Made by a program: the position numbers and the translations under genes. From a virus: 41,809 nucleotides of DNA. Of this stretch, positions 9,660-18,449 are shown in pieces. The notes beneath the pieces are model-generated. The model searched no databases. It had not been told where the DNA came from and worked only from the letters and a program-made list of their open reading frames with translations. How positions within the stretch are numbered: position 1 is the stretch's first letter; each line of letters opens with the position of its first letter. The stretch spans positions 1 to 41,809 of IMG/VR virus record IMGVR_UViG_3300042351_001534. One strand, written 5' to 3'.

Positions 9660-9809
9660 TTAATCCTCGTCATCAAATTCTTCCCAGCGGCGCCGGCGCT
9701 CATGGAAATCCCGTATATCTGAGCGCATCGACTCGCGGCCCAAGCAGTAGCTCGCAAAGCACGAACCCAGCGTCAGCAGCGCGATAGATATCCCCAGCGT
9801 CACGCTCAC
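9660..9809 (-). CDS. Small single-pass membrane protein
   Basis: 49 residues with a GTG start overlapping the upstream stop as GTGA. Residues 2-23 (SVTLGISIALLTLGSCFASY) form one hydrophobic helix; the rest is charged (SDIRDFHERRRRWEEFDDED). It would sit in the inner membrane with a cytoplasmic C-terminus. Position just before the Sak4-like gene makes it early. Function unknown. Confidence 0.6.
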   Translation of the reverse strand: MSVTLGISIALLTLGSCFASYCLGRESMRSDIRDFHERRRRWEEFDDED

Positions 9810-10066
9810 TTCGCGGCCTCCTCCACCAGTTTGACTTTGAGCGACGCAGTGCCGACCGGCCTCACCTCGGCCACCAGTTCAAGAATCTGATAACTCCCAC
9901 ATGCAGATTCATCCCGATCTTTTAGCGGTGTTTCTGACTCTTCCCACCAGTTCGCAAAATCCTTGCGGATAAAAGCCTCCGCAGCCGCACGGGTCTCGTA
10001 GGGCCCAAACATGTCAAGCATGCCGATTTTTCGAGCCTCAGTGTCGGTGACATAAAAAGCGCTCAT
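9806..10066 (-). CDS. Hypothetical early protein, 86 residues
   Basis: ATG 10066 overlaps the preceding stop as ATGA. The sequence is mixed alpha/beta: FYVTDTEARKIGMLDMFGPY, then AAAEAFIRKDFANWWEESET, and a strand near the end (TASLKVKLVEEAAK). The GPYETRAAAEAFI stretch resembles small beta-alpha proteins that carry an SPOR- or DUF-like helix after a strand. No catalytic motif. Its place in the early block next to two membrane micro-genes is the only context. Confidence 0.7.
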   Translation of the reverse strand: MSAFYVTDTEARKIGMLDMFGPYETRAAAEAFIRKDFANWWEESETPLKDRDESACGSYQILELVAEVRPVGTASLKVKLVEEAAK

Positions 10067-10188
10067 CGTGCCTTCTCCCCCCATGTGGTGACCCAGTAGG
10101 TTGCGACCCCCAGCACAAGGGCTGGGCCGATAGCGCGGAAAAACTCCCACGCGAACTGCAGTTGTCTAATTATGACTTCGTGTTCCAT
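10063..10188 (-). CDS. Small membrane protein, 41 residues
   Basis: ATG 10188 to TGA 10063. One hydrophobic helix is visible (FFRAIGPALVLGVATYWVTT), preceded by a polar N-terminus and followed by WGEKAR. It overlaps the next start as ATGA and lies 5 bases after the 50-residue gene. The tight packing is the main evidence that it is translated. Function unknown. Confidence 0.55.
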   Translation of the reverse strand: MEHEVIIRQLQFAWEFFRAIGPALVLGVATYWVTTWGEKAR

Positions 10189-10193
10189 AAAAA

Positions 10194-10346
10194 TTATCTC
10201 TCCAGCGAGACATGCAGGGCTTGAATGCCATGCAGGTGGTAAAATTTCGTCCGAGCATCGCTAAACCCGCATGCCTTGATCATGTGCCGCACCGGCCCGA
10301 ACAAAGGGTCATAGCCCTCACACAGGTAGAGTCGCGGCGCCTTCAT
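10194..10346 (-). CDS. Small hypothetical protein, 50 residues
   Basis: ATG 10346 overlaps the stop of the excisionase-like gene as ATGA. The product (MKAPRLYLCEGYDPLFGPVR, then HMIKACGFSDARTKFYHLHG) resembles a small beta-alpha unit. Read only from its packing between two genes; no homology is recognised. Confidence 0.5.
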   Translation of the reverse strand: MKAPRLYLCEGYDPLFGPVRHMIKACGFSDARTKFYHLHGIQALHVSLER

Positions 10347-10516
10347 TCCTGGACCCCCTTCTCAACAGCCGCGTCGAGCTCGCTCACCTTGAGCAGTGTC
10401 GAACCGCCAAATTTGTAGAATTTGAGAAGCCCGGCCCGCTTCTTGTTGTAGATAGTGCTTAGTGAGACTGAGAGGTATTGGGCCGCTTCCTCGGGTCTCA
10501 AATATCCCGGCTTCAT
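10343..10516 (-). CDS. Excisionase-like helix-turn-helix protein
   Basis: 57 residues. The motif YLRPEEAAQYLSVSLSTIYN followed by KFGGSTLLKVSELDAAV is the classic MerR-like winged helix of excisionases and the HTH_17 family. The size fits a phage Xis. It is the second gene of the leftward early operon, directly behind the ribbon-helix-helix gene (ATGA overlap at 10513-10516), so it would be made only when the leftward promoter is active. That is what is expected of an excisionase or early regulator paired with the integrase 1 kb away. Confidence 0.72.
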   Translation of the reverse strand: MKPGYLRPEEAAQYLSVSLSTIYNKKRAGLLKFYKFGGSTLLKVSELDAAVEKGVQE

Positions 10517-10686
10517 TTCGACGCCCTCCCCTTGGTTTTGGTTTTGGCATCCCGCTCGGCCATGCGGCCTACAGCTTGAGCTACTAACCGACTCACCGGA
10601 GTTGCCCCCGTTTTACTTTTCGCCTTGAGGAACCCGTAGACCTCGTCCGGCAGACTCACTGAGATTTTTACATATGCACCTTGCAT
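10513..10686 (-). CDS. Ribbon-helix-helix regulator, first gene of the leftward operon
   Basis: 57 residues. AYVKISVSLPDEVYGFLKAK is a ribbon-helix-helix signature (beta strand with alternating polar residues, then helix A), and VSRLVAQAVGRM is helix B; the tail is lysine-rich. Proteins of this fold (CopG, Arc, MetJ) bind DNA as dimers on short repeats. The coding sequence begins two bases from the nearest GGTGCTACT copy (10688-10696), so the protein could repress its own promoter. A cro-like role opposite the plus-strand ribbon-helix-helix gene is inferred from the divergent layout. Confidence 0.75.
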   Translation of the reverse strand: MQGAYVKISVSLPDEVYGFLKAKSKTGATPVSRLVAQAVGRMAERDAKTKTKGRASK

Positions 10687-10844
10687 GGGTGCTACTGAAT
10701 AAAACTGGTGCTACTCGGTAAAGAAAAAAAATAAATAGGGTGATCACCCCATACGAAAAAAACACTTGACACCCGCATAAATAAAGGAGCGCAGGGCGAA
10801 AAAATATTTTGCACTCGGTGGCAATCGGTGCTACTGGTAGGAAC
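10687..10844. promoter_or_regulatory. Divergent control region of the lysogeny switch
   Basis: 158 bp between two divergent regulator genes. GGTGCTACT occurs at 10688-10696, 10707-10715 and 10827-10835, with a related CGGTGGCAA at 10816-10824 ten bases before the third copy. A perfect 12-bp palindrome GGGTGATCACCC lies at 10738-10749. A TTGACA box (10766-10771) is present but no -10 hexamer stands at normal spacing. The outer copies sit next to each start codon, so bound protein would block both promoters or both ribosome sites. Short tandem repeats are the usual binding pattern of ribbon-helix-helix dimers. Confidence 0.75.
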
Positions 10845-11195
10845 ATGAAAACGAAAACCGGAGCATCAAAAGTAAACATCTCGATGCCGAAAGAGCTCTA
10901 CGACTACTTAAAAAAAATGGTCGATGACCACAACGCCAAGCCAGAAAACGCCTACTGCCCCACCGATTTTTCCAAGATGGTTCAGAAAGCCATCCGCACC
11001 ATGATCGAGGAAGATCGCAAATCTAAAATATTCGGCCAAGCCATGCCCGACATGCCATCTTACAGGCTCAATGAAGACCCCCATACGCCCCAGAACACAT
11101 TGATCCGACCCTCCATCGAGACCTTAGATGGTGGATTATCAACAGCTACGACGGCCCGCTACCAGAAGGCTGGACGGCGCAAGTCATCGACCTGA
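10845..11195 (+). CDS. Ribbon-helix-helix protein, probable lysogeny regulator
   Basis: 116 residues from ATG 10845 (preceded by GGTAGGA). The ribbon is KVNISMPKELYDYLKKMV and a second helix follows (FSKMVQKAIRTMIEEDRK); between them is an insertion HNAKPENAYCPTD not typical of the shortest family members. The C-terminal half is polar and probably disordered. It is one of only two plus-strand genes, transcribed away from the early operon and together with a lipoprotein gene 8 bases downstream. That is the arrangement expected of a prophage repressor expressed in the lysogen. No classical CI-type repressor is present. Confidence 0.72.
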   Translation: MKTKTGASKVNISMPKELYDYLKKMVDDHNAKPENAYCPTDFSKMVQKAIRTMIEEDRKSKIFGQAMPDMPSYRLNEDPHTPQNTLIRPSIETLDGGLSTATTARYQKAGRRKSST

Positions 11196-11202
11196 CCTCG
11201 CC

Positions 11203-11601
11203 ATGAAAACTCTATTTATTCTGTGCGCCTTCGCCTTACTCCTGAGCGGCTGCGCCACCCCCAGCAGCACCATCGACCTCGAGGCCAGCAAACGCGCCTG
11301 GGAAGCCAAGCACAGCGACCGCACCGTCGAAATCCACACCCTCCCCTACGGCGCCATGGTCGACCTCAACGGCGATGTGGTAGGCATTACCCCCTGCACC
11401 CTTGAGCTCAAGCGCTGCTACCAAGGAGGCTGGCCCCTCAACGGCAACCCCGTGCAAATCCTCCGAGCCCGCTTCTGGGACGGCACCGCCCAGGAACAAC
11501 ATTTCTTCACCACCGCTACTCCCCCCAGAAAAGTCGCCTTCATCCACCCGCACGCCCACCTCTACCCAAATCCTAAGCCACTCGCCCTCTCGCAGCGGTA
11601 A
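11203..11601 (+). CDS. PEGA-domain-like lipoprotein, probable lysogenic conversion gene
   Basis: 132 residues. Signal peptide KTLFILCAFALLLSGC has the lipobox LLSGC with Cys17 as anchor. After a helical linker the motif EIHTLPYGAMVDLNGDVVG followed by ITPC matches the PEGA pattern (P-x-G-A-x-V-x-x-N-G-x-x-x-G-x-T-P), a small surface beta domain. The C-terminal part adds strands (QILRARFWDGTAQEQHFF). It is co-oriented with the regulator and would be expressed in the lysogen, like the superinfection-exclusion lipoproteins of other temperate phages. The gene stops one base before the convergent integrase stop. Confidence 0.72.
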   Translation: MKTLFILCAFALLLSGCATPSSTIDLEASKRAWEAKHSDRTVEIHTLPYGAMVDLNGDVVGITPCTLELKRCYQGGWPLNGNPVQILRARFWDGTAQEQHFFTTATPPRKVAFIHPHAHLYPNPKPLALSQR

Positions 11602-11602
11602 A

Positions 11603-12613
11603 CTACAGGTCCCACCATTTGGCCGCGTCGCGCCTCGATACTTGGTTGGCATAAGTCTCGTATAAGAGGCGCGGCGATGTGCCCATGAGAAACGCCGTCG
11701 TCACCGTGTCCTTGAAGTGCGCCAGGTGGTAGCTCGCAAAAGAATGCCGCAGGCAGTTCGCCGGCCATTCCAGCGGATCCACGCCGATTACTTCGCAGGC
11801 TTCGCGGATCACAGGCTTCCAGCGTTTCTTGCTCCACCCATCCACCAGCGGCTTGTCCGCAGCTCGGCGCGGCATGTGCCGCTTCAACGGCTCGTAGATC
11901 GTCGCAGAGCGCGGCCTCGCCGCCTCGCCCTGCTTGGCATCCTCATGGCGAATCACGATCTCGTCATATTCAAAGTCAATCGCCGATGCCGGAATCGAAA
12001 AAATCTCCCGCGTCCGAAGGCCCGCAAATGCTCCCGCAACCAACCAAGCACGGAACCATTCCGGCCACTCATGCTCAAGCAGAGCCCTCATCTGAGCCAC
12101 CGTGAGGATAGGCAAGCGCGACCCCTTGTCCTTCTTCGGCGGTGCGTCAGAAAACGGATTATGGCTCACCCTCTCCCGCATGGCAGTTGACGAGAAAAAA
12201 TCTCGGCACACTGCAAAAACATTGAACCTCCCGCGAGTTGTGAGCGGCAGCTTGTCCACCCACCTACGCATCGCCACCGAATCCAAGTCCTCCAGCCGCT
12301 TCTTGCCATGCGCATCCGAAAATTTAAGCAGGCCCCACTTAAGTTGGCGCAGCGTGACCGGCTCCACCTCCACAGATTTTTTGGCAAGGAACGCCGCCAC
12401 AAAATGAGCCACCGTCTCGCCATCCTCCGCCTTCGACGGAATCTCGCCCGTATGAGCCAGCGAAAAAACAAGCTCCGCGTGAGCCTTGTTAGCATCCGCC
12501 GCGTCCTTGAAAAACATCCGCCGACGCTTTCCGCCATTCAGTGCCTTCGGGATGTCGATCACCCACCGCGCCAACTTTCGGTCAAACCGTGGAATCAGAG
12601 CCTGTAAATTCAT
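11603..12613 (-). CDS. int: Tyrosine recombinase (phage integrase)
   Basis: 336 residues. The N-terminal half holds the core-binding domain (about 64-150). The catalytic domain has Arg200 in AGLRTREI, Arg289 in NCLRHSFASY and the nucleophile Tyr321 in YETYANQV. Two usual histidines are replaced: box II reads N-x-L-R and the later GH is GT. The ending AAKWWDL with HSFASYHLA is a variant I recall from Verrucomicrobiota-type integrases. It would join attP (12614-12830, just upstream) to a tRNA gene. The gene converges on the lysogeny operon, one base apart. Confidence 0.9.
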   Translation of the reverse strand: MNLQALIPRFDRKLARWVIDIPKALNGGKRRRMFFKDAADANKAHAELVFSLAHTGEIPSKAEDGETVAHFVAAFLAKKSVEVEPVTLRQLKWGLLKFSDAHGKKRLEDLDSVAMRRWVDKLPLTTRGRFNVFAVCRDFFSSTAMRERVSHNPFSDAPPKKDKGSRLPILTVAQMRALLEHEWPEWFRAWLVAGAFAGLRTREIFSIPASAIDFEYDEIVIRHEDAKQGEAARPRSATIYEPLKRHMPRRAADKPLVDGWSKKRWKPVIREACEVIGVDPLEWPANCLRHSFASYHLAHFKDTVTTAFLMGTSPRLLYETYANQVSRRDAAKWWDL

Positions 12614-12830: not shown

Positions 12831-13023
12831 ATTTAAACAACCCAGGATGTTGTCTTGAAAACTTTAGAGCCGTGTCTGGATCAGTATACGACAACTCCAT
12901 GTATTCTTTTTCGTCTCCAGTGAGAGGGCGTTTTAGCTTTCTCTCATAGTTCTGGATTGCTTCTTTGATCTCGGCTTCTGTCTCACCGATATCTTCGCTG
13001 AAATCTGCTGGGAATCCACTCAT
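12829..13023 (-). CDS. Small acidic hypothetical protein
   Basis: 64 residues, last gene of the late operon before attP. FSEDIGETEAEIKEAIQNYE and the later EKEYMELSYTDPDTALKFSR suggest helices; the ending RQHPGLFK is short and basic. The start overlaps the stop of the 1809-residue gene as ATGA, so it is translationally coupled to it. It may be a virion component or a chaperone for the giant protein, but no family is recognised. Confidence 0.68.
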   Translation of the reverse strand: MSGFPADFSEDIGETEAEIKEAIQNYERKLKRPLTGDEKEYMELSYTDPDTALKFSRQHPGLFK

Positions 13024-16000
13024 TGTCTTGAATAGTCAAATACACCGTTGTTTAATGTTAGTCTAATGATTTCTCGGCCGTTGGCCGCTTGCCCTTCCAC
13101 ATATCCTTTGGACGAATTGGCAAATGAAACCCAATCGCTGGCCGTGCCTGTGCGGCCGAATTTCTTGAGGAAGTTTTTTGTGAGATCAAGCGACGAGTGG
13201 CCGACGGCTTCGTTCTTGATTGCGTTCCATGTCACCCAATGCAGTCCGCCTGGATCGGCGTGGTTGCCAAGGTAGGCTTGTAGGTCTGGCGAGGCATTGA
13301 TTGCGGCTTGCGCAGCGCGGTCGATGCTGTTGTAAAGTGCCAGGCTAAAGGCAGGGTTTCCATTTTCAATTGTGCCGTAGTTGCCGTAAATTCCAATGGG
13401 GTCTTCGGGGATCCGCTTTGCATCGCCTGTGTATTGGAAATAGTGCTGGTGACTTGGTGCTCCGGTGGCCTGCATGACTGGGTCCATGTAGAGATCCACG
13501 AAACGCCAGCGGTCCAGCACCGTGCCTTTGATGCCAAATGTAAGGCCGATGAATCCTTGCACCTTGTTTTTGATGCCTGTGGCGCCATGGCCCAGGCCGT
13601 TGAAACGAGACCGCATTTCGATAGCGTTTTTTGAGGAGTATAGGTCTGCTACTTGGCCCCATTTACCGTTGTGGTTTTCAAGCATCAAATGGAATGAGTT
13701 TGCATTCGATGTGGCGTTGTTGCCGAGCTTCTCGTAGCGGCCTTGAGTGGACTCTCTGGCATTGTTTACGATTTCTGCCCATTGAGGTTGTTCAAGAGAG
13801 AATTTTCCGTCGATGGAGTTTTGGATTTGCTGGATGACCTCTGGGTTTATAACGAGGCGCATCCAGAGAGCCTCTTGATCCAACGGAGGAAGTTGTTTGG
13901 AAAGCGTGCCCCAGAGGTGGTGCAGTGCCGTGACAAACTCGGTGGGCTTTTCTCCGATGACCTGCCGCATTTCGACAACGCTATCCAGCCCAGCCATGGC
14001 GGCTTCTCGCGTTCCTGAGACGGTGCGAGGCCCGTGGAATCCTCCATTTAAAAGGCCGATGAAATCCTTTGGACGATTCAGCATCATTGCGATGCCGCTC
14101 GGAGGGACAAGGATGTCTCCCGTGACGCCGGCGTCTCGCATGATTTCGGTGTATCCTTTGGGGTCGATAAATTTGATCGGATCGCTTTCAATGATAGATG
14201 TTGCCTGATCGATTTGAGAAATTGATGCCAGCGCCTGCTTTCTGTTGTCCAATGCGGTTCCGTAAAGGTCTTTGTTCCCCAATGAGAATTTTGATTTGGA
14301 AATCTGGAAATTCGGGAGCGGCAATTCAAAGTCCCCCGGCTTAAATTTTACTTCCGTATTGTCCCGCAGTTTAGGCTTCACCTTTACTTTCTGATTTCCC
14401 TTCTTGTCCAAGACAGGTTGGCCTTTTTTATCAAATACTTTTTCTCGAATCATCACGCGGACGATAGGCACCGACTTCGCTTGAGGGATTGTCTTGGGCA
14501 GGGATTTTGCTGCCGTGTTGAAGAGCTGCGTCATCGAACCCGCCGGCATGTCGATGCCTTTGTCAGGCACCGCATTCGGCACCGCATCCGGCATGGCTTG
14601 GCCTTGTTGGCTGTATAAGGCGTTTTCTGTAGCTCTGGGCAATGAAATGAGCCTGTCGCGGGAGTAGCCAGTGAGGTCATTCATTTCAGTGATTGGAGAT
14701 AATGACAGCTCGTCACCCATTTCATGTGCTCCCCACATGCGATCTCCGTCGGACCAACGGCGGGCCACATCGATTGCGCTGGATGGTTGCTCGCCGTATT
14801 TTTTCAAAAACGAGGCCAACTGCCGATCTGTCATTTTTTCGATTGGCTTTAGAGGTTTTGGTGCGCTCGGCATGGCCTGCCCTGGCAGGTCTTTCGACAA
14901 GTCCGGCATGGGGGCTGGATTGTCGGGCATGAAGTTGCGGTTGGCGCGGTCGTAGTCGAAGTGGAATCCGGTGCGGCCGGTGCCTACGGCGGCGTCTACG
15001 CGGTCGAGGCGGAATTGTTTGATGGCGCTGCCGGGGCCGAAGCTGCCGGAGAGGGCGTTGCGCTCGCGGTTTTTGGTGGTGGCGATGCCGAGGATGGCGT
15101 TGATGGCGTCGCGCTTCTCGTCGCCGATCTTGGTGTTGCCGGGGAGTTCTTGCCGGTGGTTCTCCATGTAGGTCTTGAGGTCGGCTTCGATCTTGCCCAT
15201 GTCGTAGTCGAAGGGGGCGAGGGCGGGGTTGCGCTCGGCGATGCCTCGCATGGCGCGGTTGCGGAATTGCGAGAGGTCGAGCACGGTGGCGTTGAGGTTG
15301 CCTGCTTTGGTGAGTTCCCATCCCCAGGGAATGACTTCGCGGGTGATGGCTTCGAGGTTGCCGAGGCGGTTGACTCGGAAGGCGCCGGTGTCTCCGCTGC
15401 CGATGGCGTGGTAGCGGACCTGCATGCTCTCGCCAGCGGCTCCGAGGGCCTCAAACTGGCGTGCGAAGGCTCGGATGTGCGGCATGAAGCCGTTGAGGAA
15501 ATCGAAGCTGGGCGGGAGGACTCGGCCTCGCACGGTGACGCGGCCATCTGCGGTCTTCTTGGGGCCGAGGACGGGGTTGGAGTCTGGAATGAGTTTAGAG
15601 CCGACGATGTTTCGGATCTGCTCTTTGACCTTGGCGTGTTCTTGGTTGAGGTCGCGCTGGTCGCGAAGGATGGCTTGGCCGGTGGCGGGGTCTTGCGTGG
15701 CGAAGGTGGTGGCTTTCACGCCGTCGCCTCGGTCGTAAAATGTGACCTGGGGGTTGTTGGCGAGGTCGCTGGCTCGGCCGCTGGGGGCGATGCGGTTTGG
15801 GCGGGGCTTTTCGTGGCTGGGGTCGTTGGCCCACTGGCGGTAGTTATTGATGTAGGTGCCGAGCTGGTTGAGAAGGGCCTTGTCGGTGGCGAGGATGGGG
15901 TTCTCTTTGAAGAGGCTGCCGGGGGTGTCGAGGGCTTCGCCGGTCTGCGGGTCGATGCGCACACCGCTGGCGCTGAGGGCGCGGGCTTGGGCACCGAGGA

Positions 16001-18449
16001 CGCTCTCGGCGAAGGTGAGCATGTTGCCTCCGGCGGGGGCTCCTCGGCGGATGGCGGCGAAATCCATGGTGTTGCTGGCCTTGGCGAAGGTCTCGGCGAA
16101 AATCTCGTCGCGGGCCCAATCAAGGCCATCCATGTCGCCTCGGGCGAGGCCGCCTTGGCTGAGGTTATCCATCTCGGCGGCGAGTGTGCCGGGGCTGATC
16201 TCGAAGTTGCCGTCGGGGAAGGCGCTGGCGTTTTTGCCTCGGATGATGTTGCTGGCGTATTCGGCGGCGCGGGCTTGGACGCCTTCGGGGCCGTAGGTTT
16301 TATCCACCCAGGCTCGGGCGGCGTATTTTTGCTGGCCGTCGAGGGCTCCGCTGGCGAGGAGGGCGTGGCCAAATTCGTGGGGCTCGACTCCTCCACGGCG
16401 GGCGTCGAGGTTGATGAAGACCTTGGCGCGTTCGCCGAGTGGGGCCTGCACAAACATGCCGGCGGTTCCGGCTCCGCCTTGGGCGTCTACATTTTTGGCG
16501 TATTCCTCGGCGCTGAGGGGGACGAAATCGAGGTTGTTGCGGAAGGTGCCCTGCATGGCGGCGAGCCTGACGAGGTTGTCGGGCGTCTGCGTGGCCATCA
16601 TTTTGCCGACATCTCCACCGTTGAGTTCGATATCGACGAGCATGCGGGACACATCGCTGAGGGCGGCTTGCTGGCGACGCTGGGCGAGGCCGGTGAAGCG
16701 GTCCACGCCCCCACCGAGGGCGCCAAAGGTGCCGCCCATGGCGAGCATGGCGGCGGCGTCTTCGTCCTGACCGGCATTGGCGGCGAGGAGGGCGAAGGGA
16801 ACATTGGCTGCGGCACCTTTCACGGCACCTGTAGCGAGGGCGCTGGATCCGCGGACGGCTTGGACGATGGCGGGATTTGAGAGCTTGCCCATGAAGGCAC
16901 GCATCTGCGGCGAGAGGGCTTGATTCGCGGCGAGTCGGGCGGGCGTGGACTCGATGCTCACGAACTGACTTGGGCGCTCGAGGACTTCTTTGAAAATGGA
17001 AGGCACGGCGGGATTGGCCAACACGGCGGCTCGGGCGGCTTGGTCGAGGCCATTGGTGGCGTCGGCGGATTCGCGGAGGATGATTTTAGCGGTGCCTGCT
17101 CCGGTCTCGATCTTGCGGAGCACGCCGAGCCCTGCTTTGTAGGCGGGGTAGAACCCGGCAATGGTGGCGCTGACTTCTGGCGGGGCTCCGAGGGCTGTGG
17201 CACCCATGGCGATACCGCCGCCGATGCCGACATTCCGGCCAAAGGTCATGGCGTTTGCCGCGGCAGAGATGTTTTGCGGGCTGACGCCGGTCTTTTCGGT
17301 GACGACTCTGGCGAAGCGTTCAGCGAGGGCGTCGTTGCCTTTGACGAGGCCGCCTGCGAGTTTTTCAATGCCGCTGGCGGTCTTGGAACTAACAATCTTC
17401 ATGCCTCGGGAGAGGCCGAGGGGTTTTGCACCGGCGCTGAAAGGGATGATGTTGGTCGGGTCGGTGGCGATCTCGAGCACCTGAGCCTGGGACTCGATGG
17501 GCGTCTCTTGCTGGTTGCGGCCGGTGAGCACGCGGGTGAGTAGCTCGGTGGGCGCGGTCTTTTGCCCGAGCTCTTGATATTGGGCGTCGATGCCTTTTTC
17601 CCAAAGATGGTTTTTGAATTCGTAGTCCTTCAGATCCTCCTCGTTGGTTGGGCGGATCGGTTGATTTGGATATCGCTCTTGGAACCCGGCGAGGATCATT
17701 GGGTTTTGCGCCTCGGCAAACAAAAACTCTCCCGTGGCCTCGTTGATATATTTAGGTTGGCCTTCCAGAGCCTGCTTGGCCCAGCCTCCGAGCTGCATGG
17801 CGCTCAAGGCAGCGCGGCCGATGCCGGTCTGGAGTGTGGCGGGGGCTTTGGCAAGAGCCTCTGATTTTGGCTCCTTGAGGGTGTCTGCTTTGATTCGGTC
17901 CCATGTCTCTGGGATGCGTGTCACGCTTCCCTCTGGGTCTACCGCCAGTGTGTAAAAAACATCCGCTGCGGTGACGAACAACCCGCCGACGGCCTTGGCT
18001 GCGAGTTCGCCATTGCCAGGGATTTTGCCTTGGGCCTTGAGGCGCTCCTTGGTGGCCTTTTGCTCGAAATACTCGTCGCGTGTCGGGATGTAGTTTGGAT
18101 CTTCGAGGGCTTCCATGACCATTTTGTCCACCTCGTCTTGAGTGTAACCTTTGGGTCGGTTGGCTCGCTCAAGTAGGTCGATTTCCTCGGTGGTGTATTC
18201 ACGGGCCTCAAGCTGGGCAACGGGGCCTATGGCGGGTCCGCGGGCAGGAAGTGCCCCCTCGCCGGTGATCAGCCCGGCAGATCCTGTCGGTTCAGGTGCT
18301 CCGCTTGCGGCGGCTGAGGCCGTAGAGGCGTTTGGGGGAATAGGGGCGTCCTGCACCGGCAGCTCGGCGGCTGCTAGAGCGTCAACTTCATCTTGGGAAT
18401 ATTCCCTGTCCTCAAGGGCGGTAGAATTGGGCGGGATAATATTTACCAT
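13020..18449 (-). CDS. Giant (1809-residue) putative ejection protein with zinc-protease motif
   Basis: Largest gene of the phage. Near the N-terminus EYSQDEVDAL, EYTTEEIDLL and GYTQDEVDKM form three imperfect repeats (about 17, 84 and 102). Small-residue hydrophobic stretches (about 407-438, 535-580) could enter a membrane. HEFGH at about 691-695 is a gluzincin-type HExxH, and DEIFAETFA about 85 residues later offers the third Glu ligand. The C-terminal half has no recognised enzyme motif but has a folded look. Size, late-gene position and neighbours match ejection proteins such as T7 gp16, or 'polyvalent proteins' injected with DNA. It overlaps the upstream gene by 38 bases. Confidence 0.8.
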   Translation of the reverse strand: MVNIIPPNSTALEDREYSQDEVDALAAAELPVQDAPIPPNASTASAAASGAPEPTGSAGLITGEGALPARGPAIGPVAQLEAREYTTEEIDLLERANRPKGYTQDEVDKMVMEALEDPNYIPTRDEYFEQKATKERLKAQGKIPGNGELAAKAVGGLFVTAADVFYTLAVDPEGSVTRIPETWDRIKADTLKEPKSEALAKAPATLQTGIGRAALSAMQLGGWAKQALEGQPKYINEATGEFLFAEAQNPMILAGFQERYPNQPIRPTNEEDLKDYEFKNHLWEKGIDAQYQELGQKTAPTELLTRVLTGRNQQETPIESQAQVLEIATDPTNIIPFSAGAKPLGLSRGMKIVSSKTASGIEKLAGGLVKGNDALAERFARVVTEKTGVSPQNISAAANAMTFGRNVGIGGGIAMGATALGAPPEVSATIAGFYPAYKAGLGVLRKIETGAGTAKIILRESADATNGLDQAARAAVLANPAVPSIFKEVLERPSQFVSIESTPARLAANQALSPQMRAFMGKLSNPAIVQAVRGSSALATGAVKGAAANVPFALLAANAGQDEDAAAMLAMGGTFGALGGGVDRFTGLAQRRQQAALSDVSRMLVDIELNGGDVGKMMATQTPDNLVRLAAMQGTFRNNLDFVPLSAEEYAKNVDAQGGAGTAGMFVQAPLGERAKVFINLDARRGGVEPHEFGHALLASGALDGQQKYAARAWVDKTYGPEGVQARAAEYASNIIRGKNASAFPDGNFEISPGTLAAEMDNLSQGGLARGDMDGLDWARDEIFAETFAKASNTMDFAAIRRGAPAGGNMLTFAESVLGAQARALSASGVRIDPQTGEALDTPGSLFKENPILATDKALLNQLGTYINNYRQWANDPSHEKPRPNRIAPSGRASDLANNPQVTFYDRGDGVKATTFATQDPATGQAILRDQRDLNQEHAKVKEQIRNIVGSKLIPDSNPVLGPKKTADGRVTVRGRVLPPSFDFLNGFMPHIRAFARQFEALGAAGESMQVRYHAIGSGDTGAFRVNRLGNLEAITREVIPWGWELTKAGNLNATVLDLSQFRNRAMRGIAERNPALAPFDYDMGKIEADLKTYMENHRQELPGNTKIGDEKRDAINAILGIATTKNRERNALSGSFGPGSAIKQFRLDRVDAAVGTGRTGFHFDYDRANRNFMPDNPAPMPDLSKDLPGQAMPSAPKPLKPIEKMTDRQLASFLKKYGEQPSSAIDVARRWSDGDRMWGAHEMGDELSLSPITEMNDLTGYSRDRLISLPRATENALYSQQGQAMPDAVPNAVPDKGIDMPAGSMTQLFNTAAKSLPKTIPQAKSVPIVRVMIREKVFDKKGQPVLDKKGNQKVKVKPKLRDNTEVKFKPGDFELPLPNFQISKSKFSLGNKDLYGTALDNRKQALASISQIDQATSIIESDPIKFIDPKGYTEIMRDAGVTGDILVPPSGIAMMLNRPKDFIGLLNGGFHGPRTVSGTREAAMAGLDSVVEMRQVIGEKPTEFVTALHHLWGTLSKQLPPLDQEALWMRLVINPEVIQQIQNSIDGKFSLEQPQWAEIVNNARESTQGRYEKLGNNATSNANSFHLMLENHNGKWGQVADLYSSKNAIEMRSRFNGLGHGATGIKNKVQGFIGLTFGIKGTVLDRWRFVDLYMDPVMQATGAPSHQHYFQYTGDAKRIPEDPIGIYGNYGTIENGNPAFSLALYNSIDRAAQAAINASPDLQAYLGNHADPGGLHWVTWNAIKNEAVGHSSLDLTKNFLKKFGRTGTASDWVSFANSSKGYVEGQAANGREIIRLTLNNGVFDYSRQ

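Follow-up and report, generated by a model that had tools for sequence, protein, structure and literature searches.

The 158-bp intergenic region at 10687-10844 of the virus record analysed here is probably the operator/promoter region of a phage immunity switch in which both repressors are ribbon-helix-helix (RHH) proteins. The window, that is, the whole stretch of DNA under analysis, corresponds to the complete record of 41,809 bp. In it, this region separates a 57-aa gene on the minus strand (10513..10686), which heads a leftward early operon, from a 116-aa gene on the plus strand (10845..11195). We infer the binding of the two proteins, the repression, the direction of the circuit and the lysogeny from the anatomy of the sequence, the fold predictions, the co-inheritance of proteins and sites, and the gene neighbourhood. 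A broader proposal, to which we give an even chance, is that the RHH pair is the only immunity region in an uncultured family of bacterial viruses. There, the exchange of a cassette of ~480 bp, with both DNA-binding domains and both operators, would have given rise to no fewer than five operator classes (seven protein groups), with a common promoter core being kept.

The most visible feature of the region is the repeat GGTGCTACT. The preliminary description reported three copies between two divergent RHH genes, and exact copies are indeed found on the plus strand at 10688, 10707 and 10827, flanked by two genes whose products are RHH proteins by prediction. No other copy is found on either strand of the 41.8-kb window, and when the intergenic sequence was dinucleotide-shuffled 20,000 times, only one shuffle contained a non-simple 9-mer in triplicate. 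The first two copies (10688-10696 and 10707-10715, 19 bp apart) form the putative left operator, opL (10687..10722). The putative right operator, opR (10818..10835), lies upstream of the start of the right gene and is composed of the inverted half-sites GTGGCA (10819-10824) and TGCTAC (10830-10835), with centres 11 bp apart. The half-sites of the Arc operator show this same distance of 11 bp. Two details of the preliminary description stood in part. The outer repeats were said to touch each start codon, which is true on the left, where the first repeat is 1 bp off the codon, and not on the right, where the repeat ends at 10835 and leaves a gap of 9 bp before the start at 10845. The sequence taken for a fourth, partial copy, GGTGGCAAT, is present at 10818-10826; nonetheless, it is better read as the inverted half-site of a GTRGCA-N5-TGCTAC arrangement, which is plainer in the relatives L015 (GGTAGCAAATGGTGCTACT) and L016. 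Regarding the rest of the genome, the pattern GGTGCTACY occurs in records of types 1 and 4 as two or three cassette copies with at most one more elsewhere, and in records of other types it has 0-1 copies, much like a reversed control pattern. The putative operators are thus essentially restricted to the RHH cassette, not scattered over the genome.

Both flanking proteins are assigned to the RHH fold by prediction, the left one more securely than the right one. For the left protein, the matches are to an Arc-like PHROG (E 0.0022) and to Pfam RHH_5, the latter below the cut-off (0.0097); in the family of this protein (A6, 27 members), the best member reaches 4.8e-5. Its AlphaFold (AF2) model, with a pLDDT of 84, contains helices at residues 14-27 and 31-55, and its top match in the PDB is Arc on its operator (1par; prob 0.89, E 0.28); the next matches, which are weak, include CdbA, ParD2 and CopG. 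The right protein comprises an RHH domain at about residues 1-62 followed by a predicted disordered tail. It has no Pfam match on its own; six members of its family match RHH_1 weakly (best 0.0011), and the profiles of the right and left families align over 48 columns with a probability of 98%. The right AF2 model has helices at 16-31 and 42-62 and then a low-confidence tail, and its best structural matches are the RHH domains of ParD proteins, also weak (prob 0.66). Both models agree with the RHH arrangement of an N-terminal strand and two helices; no strand was assigned by DSSP to the monomers, which is expected, since the RHH sheet forms only in the dimer. Among 50,697 phage records, neither protein found a match, even at E<=1.

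The 158-bp region contains two further elements between the operators. The 12-bp palindrome of the preliminary description, GGGTGATCACCC (10738..10749), is perfect, and, since any palindrome of this length arises in 1.4% of intergenic shuffles, it is weak evidence taken alone. The central palindrome GGTGATCACC recurs with variants in all RHH types, the half-site variants being AGTAGATCACCCC and GGTAGGGTGTTC; because variants occur in every type, it is probably not a site of the RHH pair. To its right lies a conserved core (10766..10810) composed of TTGACA, an inverted repeat of CCCGC/GCGGG type and an A/T-rich stretch. The core TTGACA...GCGGGC...AAAATA also recurs in all RHH types, with the inverted repeat in two registers among relatives (CCCGC/GCGGG or CGCCC/GGGCG), and it probably represents one or more promoter regions. 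A sigma-70 promoter scan gave no match, and no -10 is found at normal spacing in the core. A Bacteroidota-like promoter reading, TTGACA...TAnnTYTG, was set aside, since the window sequence does not fit it, and structure prediction gave no RNA hairpin in the core. As palindrome and core do not track the RHH type, a third DNA-binding factor may act at these sites.

The relatives indicate that proteins and operators belong together. Viral contigs were searched with the RHH proteins, the integrase, AlpA and the lipoprotein, which resulted in a set of 45 distinct left-RHH/intergenic sequences, the window counted in. A divergent RHH-like gene is present in 45 of the 45 loci, at 157-188 bp from the left-type RHH gene. 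Conservation of the repeats in relatives had been named as a check on the proposed switch; across the 45 loci, repeats and operators are kept and co-vary with both proteins, a co-variation that lends indirect support to the binding of DNA by the beta-sheet of an RHH dimer. Five operator motif classes follow both proteins, and the core in between barely changes. The class GGTGCTACT/C, with direct repeats ~19 bp apart, includes the window type plus one more protein group; the class TTRCTACC...GTRGCAA comprises two protein groups; and CATATCGATATGATCGATCATATC and GTATTACTAGTCATACC are further classes. A separate RHH subfamily (L031, L049 and L121-L123), which was found through AlpA, has TGTGCACA-like repeats, which occupy the same places around the shared core. 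In L035, two tandem RHH-like genes are found on the left (segment upstream of AlpA, 10505) with a GGTGTCTGACACC palindrome as operator, and no divergent RHH gene was identified.

The comparison of distance matrices over the 45 loci gave r=0.93 for the left protein and opL, 0.78 for the right protein and opR, 0.85 for the left and right proteins, 0.76 for opL and opR across the core, and only 0.29-0.42 for the core against proteins and operators; linkage contributes to these correlations because opL adjoins the left gene, and it accounts for part of them only, leaving the joint change of the outer parts around a stable middle unexplained. When the other protein is given, the partial r for opL is 0.78 with the left protein and 0.19 with the right one, and for opR it is 0.29 with the left and 0.41 with the right, values that do not assign proteins to operators because left and right types correlate with one another. 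In the right protein, the residues predicted to contact bases (K-N-S/T, K-S-S, K-T-S or R-T-T) sort with the operator class, and the corresponding triad of the left protein is mostly constant. An assignment of each protein to its operator from these residues was dropped, as the partial correlations for opL point the other way.

The clearest case of co-variation comes from a pairwise comparison. The window and L011 (contig 3300042561_001110) share 94-100% identity at 10100-10545, the left flank of the cassette; beyond 11050, identity is for the most part 80-100%, and it is 98% in the integrase. Over the ~480 bp that include both RHH domains and the operators, identity falls to ~40-75% (10550-11000). 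A separate dip at 9800-10100 corresponds to another exchanged gene. The reverse case is that of L005/L008, in which opL is 100% identical to that of the window and the right RHH domain 86-91% identical, with neighbouring genes mostly at 57-80%. Across relatives, both RHH domains and their target sites appear to be exchanged together as one short cassette, a strong hint of an immunity (lysis/lysogeny) switch that works without repressors of the CI/Cro type. The C-terminal tail of the right protein is independent of the RHH type: L011 combines the tail of the window with a different RHH domain. Tails of the kinds GQAMPD... and QKSSSKPS... are common to different RHH types (window 11026-11195; L009, L011, L013, L032 and L049), which indicates that tail and DNA-binding domain recombine separately.

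With respect to its neighbours, the locus sits where temperate phages carry their immunity region, as judged from the predicted gene order (integrase, RHH pair, excisionase-like gene and then early genes). A gene on the minus strand (10343..10516), which overlaps the left RHH gene at its end, encodes an AlpA/excisionase-like HTH_17 protein (Pfam HTH_17, 1.3e-10; PHROG excisionase and regulator, 3.6e-6). Beyond it, leftward, are found a Sak4 annealing protein, an exonuclease, a Holliday junction resolvase, a replication initiator and a DnaB helicase. The best-covering match of the Sak4 gene is an Akkermansia phage with 36% identity, too weak for naming a host. On the other side, 3' of the right RHH gene, a plus-strand gene (11203..11601) encodes a small lipoprotein with a PEGA domain (1.7e-4), of which residues 1-28 only match the Cor exclusion protein, weakly; a lysogen-expressed cargo is possible. 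The tyrosine integrase (11603..12613, minus strand; PHROG integrase, 8.6e-22) is convergent with this right operon. The integrase reads MG-TSPRLLYETYAN in the window and in its 85-99% relatives, versus MGHxSP in more distant ones; the window integrase and these closer relatives appear to lack the conserved active-site histidine of tyrosine recombinases. Farther along, a single ORF of 1809 aa at 13020-18449 (minus strand) has no PHROG match. When 84,980 bacterial and archaeal genomes were scanned twice, with alignments of AlpA and of the integrase, no relative came up; as neither an integrated prophage nor a host was found in them, the lysogeny reading rests on the integrase and excisionase-like genes.

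The view that the phage has no CI- or Cro-type repressor is borne out by the domain searches: the window gave no hit to HTH_3 or Peptidase_S24 at E<=10, and in 14 related records neither domain had a match above the cut-off. To call the RHH region the sole regulatory island of the genome, as was done initially, is too strong, given that the very next gene encodes the AlpA/HTH_17 protein and that many ORFs have no assigned function.

According to the proposed mechanism, RHH dimers would occupy opL and opR, the arrays of half-sites close to the two start codons, and, once bound, would repress the divergent operons. The left protein, proposed as the Cro- or Arc-like partner, is encoded by the first gene of the leftward early operon (followed by AlpA/excisionase, Sak4, exonuclease, resolvase and replication genes) and would be active while the early genes are on. 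The right protein, which opens the short rightward operon with the lipoprotein, is proposed as the maintenance repressor, acting like CI or Mnt; from opL it would shut the early operon. Binding at opR would result in autoregulation and/or cross-repression, and the mutual repression of the two proteins that we infer could in this way create two stable states.

Other arrangements of the same elements have to be weighed against this switch. Each RHH protein might mainly repress its own promoter via the adjacent operator, the pair timing early expression, while AlpA or an unrecognised repressor decides lysogeny. We regard such autoregulation without a toggle as rather unlikely, even if opL co-varies most strongly with the gene next to it (partial r 0.78), an AlpA/HTH_17 gene is adjacent and many ORFs lack a family match. 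The matching types of opL and opR across the conserved core (r 0.76) argue against it, because they suggest a single specificity common to the two proteins, and so does the lack of a CI-type repressor in the window, and of any above the cut-off in the 14 related records. As for AlpA as the deciding factor, an AlpA gene of the window kind was not detected in L003, L009 and L013, which keep the RHH pair.

Phage P22 has a secondary immunity region in which ant is under the control of Mnt and Arc (PMC11016777), and the RHH pair of the window could similarly control a cargo or antirepressor operon in a phage whose primary immunity region is a different one. This is improbable here: the leftward RHH gene stands at the head of excision, recombination and replication genes and not of an antirepressor gene, and a primary region of CI/Cro type was not recognised. 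Least credible, to the point of being very improbable, is that the two proteins belong to toxin-antitoxin or partition systems (ParD/CopG/omega type) and are divergent by chance. The weak fold matches to ParD2, CopG and CdbA would agree with it; however, no match to toxin families or ParA is found among the genes adjoining the RHH pair, the divergent pair is present in all 45 loci, and an integrase and an excisionase are the neighbours.

The preferred reading, a switch made of two RHH repressors, can be compared with well-known immunity regions. In lambda-type CI/Cro regions, divergent regulators are arranged around shared operators, and these regions undergo mosaic exchange. Among Cluster A mycobacteriophages, immune specificity evolves as repressor specificity and operators diversify into immunity types, according to the part of that work available (PMC6550527). 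The window resembles both, to that extent, in its divergent regulators, common operators and diversified types; it differs in using RHH instead of helix-turn-helix proteins, without an HTH_3 repressor or S24 domain match, and in having operators essentially confined to the cassette, not scattered over the genome. Its nearest relatives are P22 immI (Arc/Mnt) and SSV1 F55. In immI, two RHH proteins are at work, Mnt repressing arc/ant and Arc inhibiting the expression of mnt, in a secondary immunity module over the antirepressor ant that is not essential for lysogeny (PMC11016777). Both systems have two RHH genes with operators, those of the window being divergent with the operators in between; the best PDB match of the left model is Arc on its operator, and the spacing of the right half-sites is that of the Arc operator. 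By contrast, the pair of the window sits between the integrase and an excisionase-like gene and leads the early replication genes, there is no control of ant (downstream genes are AlpA-like, recombination and replication genes on the left and the lipoprotein on the right), and no primary CI/Cro-type system was recognised in the window. F55 is a small RHH protein that binds tandem repeats and maintains lysogeny in a CI-like manner; unlike the window, SSV1 is an archaeal virus with a single RHH regulator, and no divergent RHH partner is described in the available part of its account (PMC5569661).

So far, RHH repressors in phages have been known mainly from a secondary module, P22 Arc/Mnt, and from the archaeal virus protein F55. 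In the literature, covered partially through titles and abstracts, no divergent RHH pair is described as the main switch of a bacteriophage. A phage family with lysis/lysogeny control by an RHH pair would constitute a compact alternative to CI/Cro. If the proposal is true, nature would have provided, in the relatives, a library of recognition codes between RHH proteins and operators, and of heteroimmunity types. The specificity classes swapped between near-identical genomes would then provide matched protein-operator pairs for the study of RHH recognition, heteroimmunity and two-repressor toggles.
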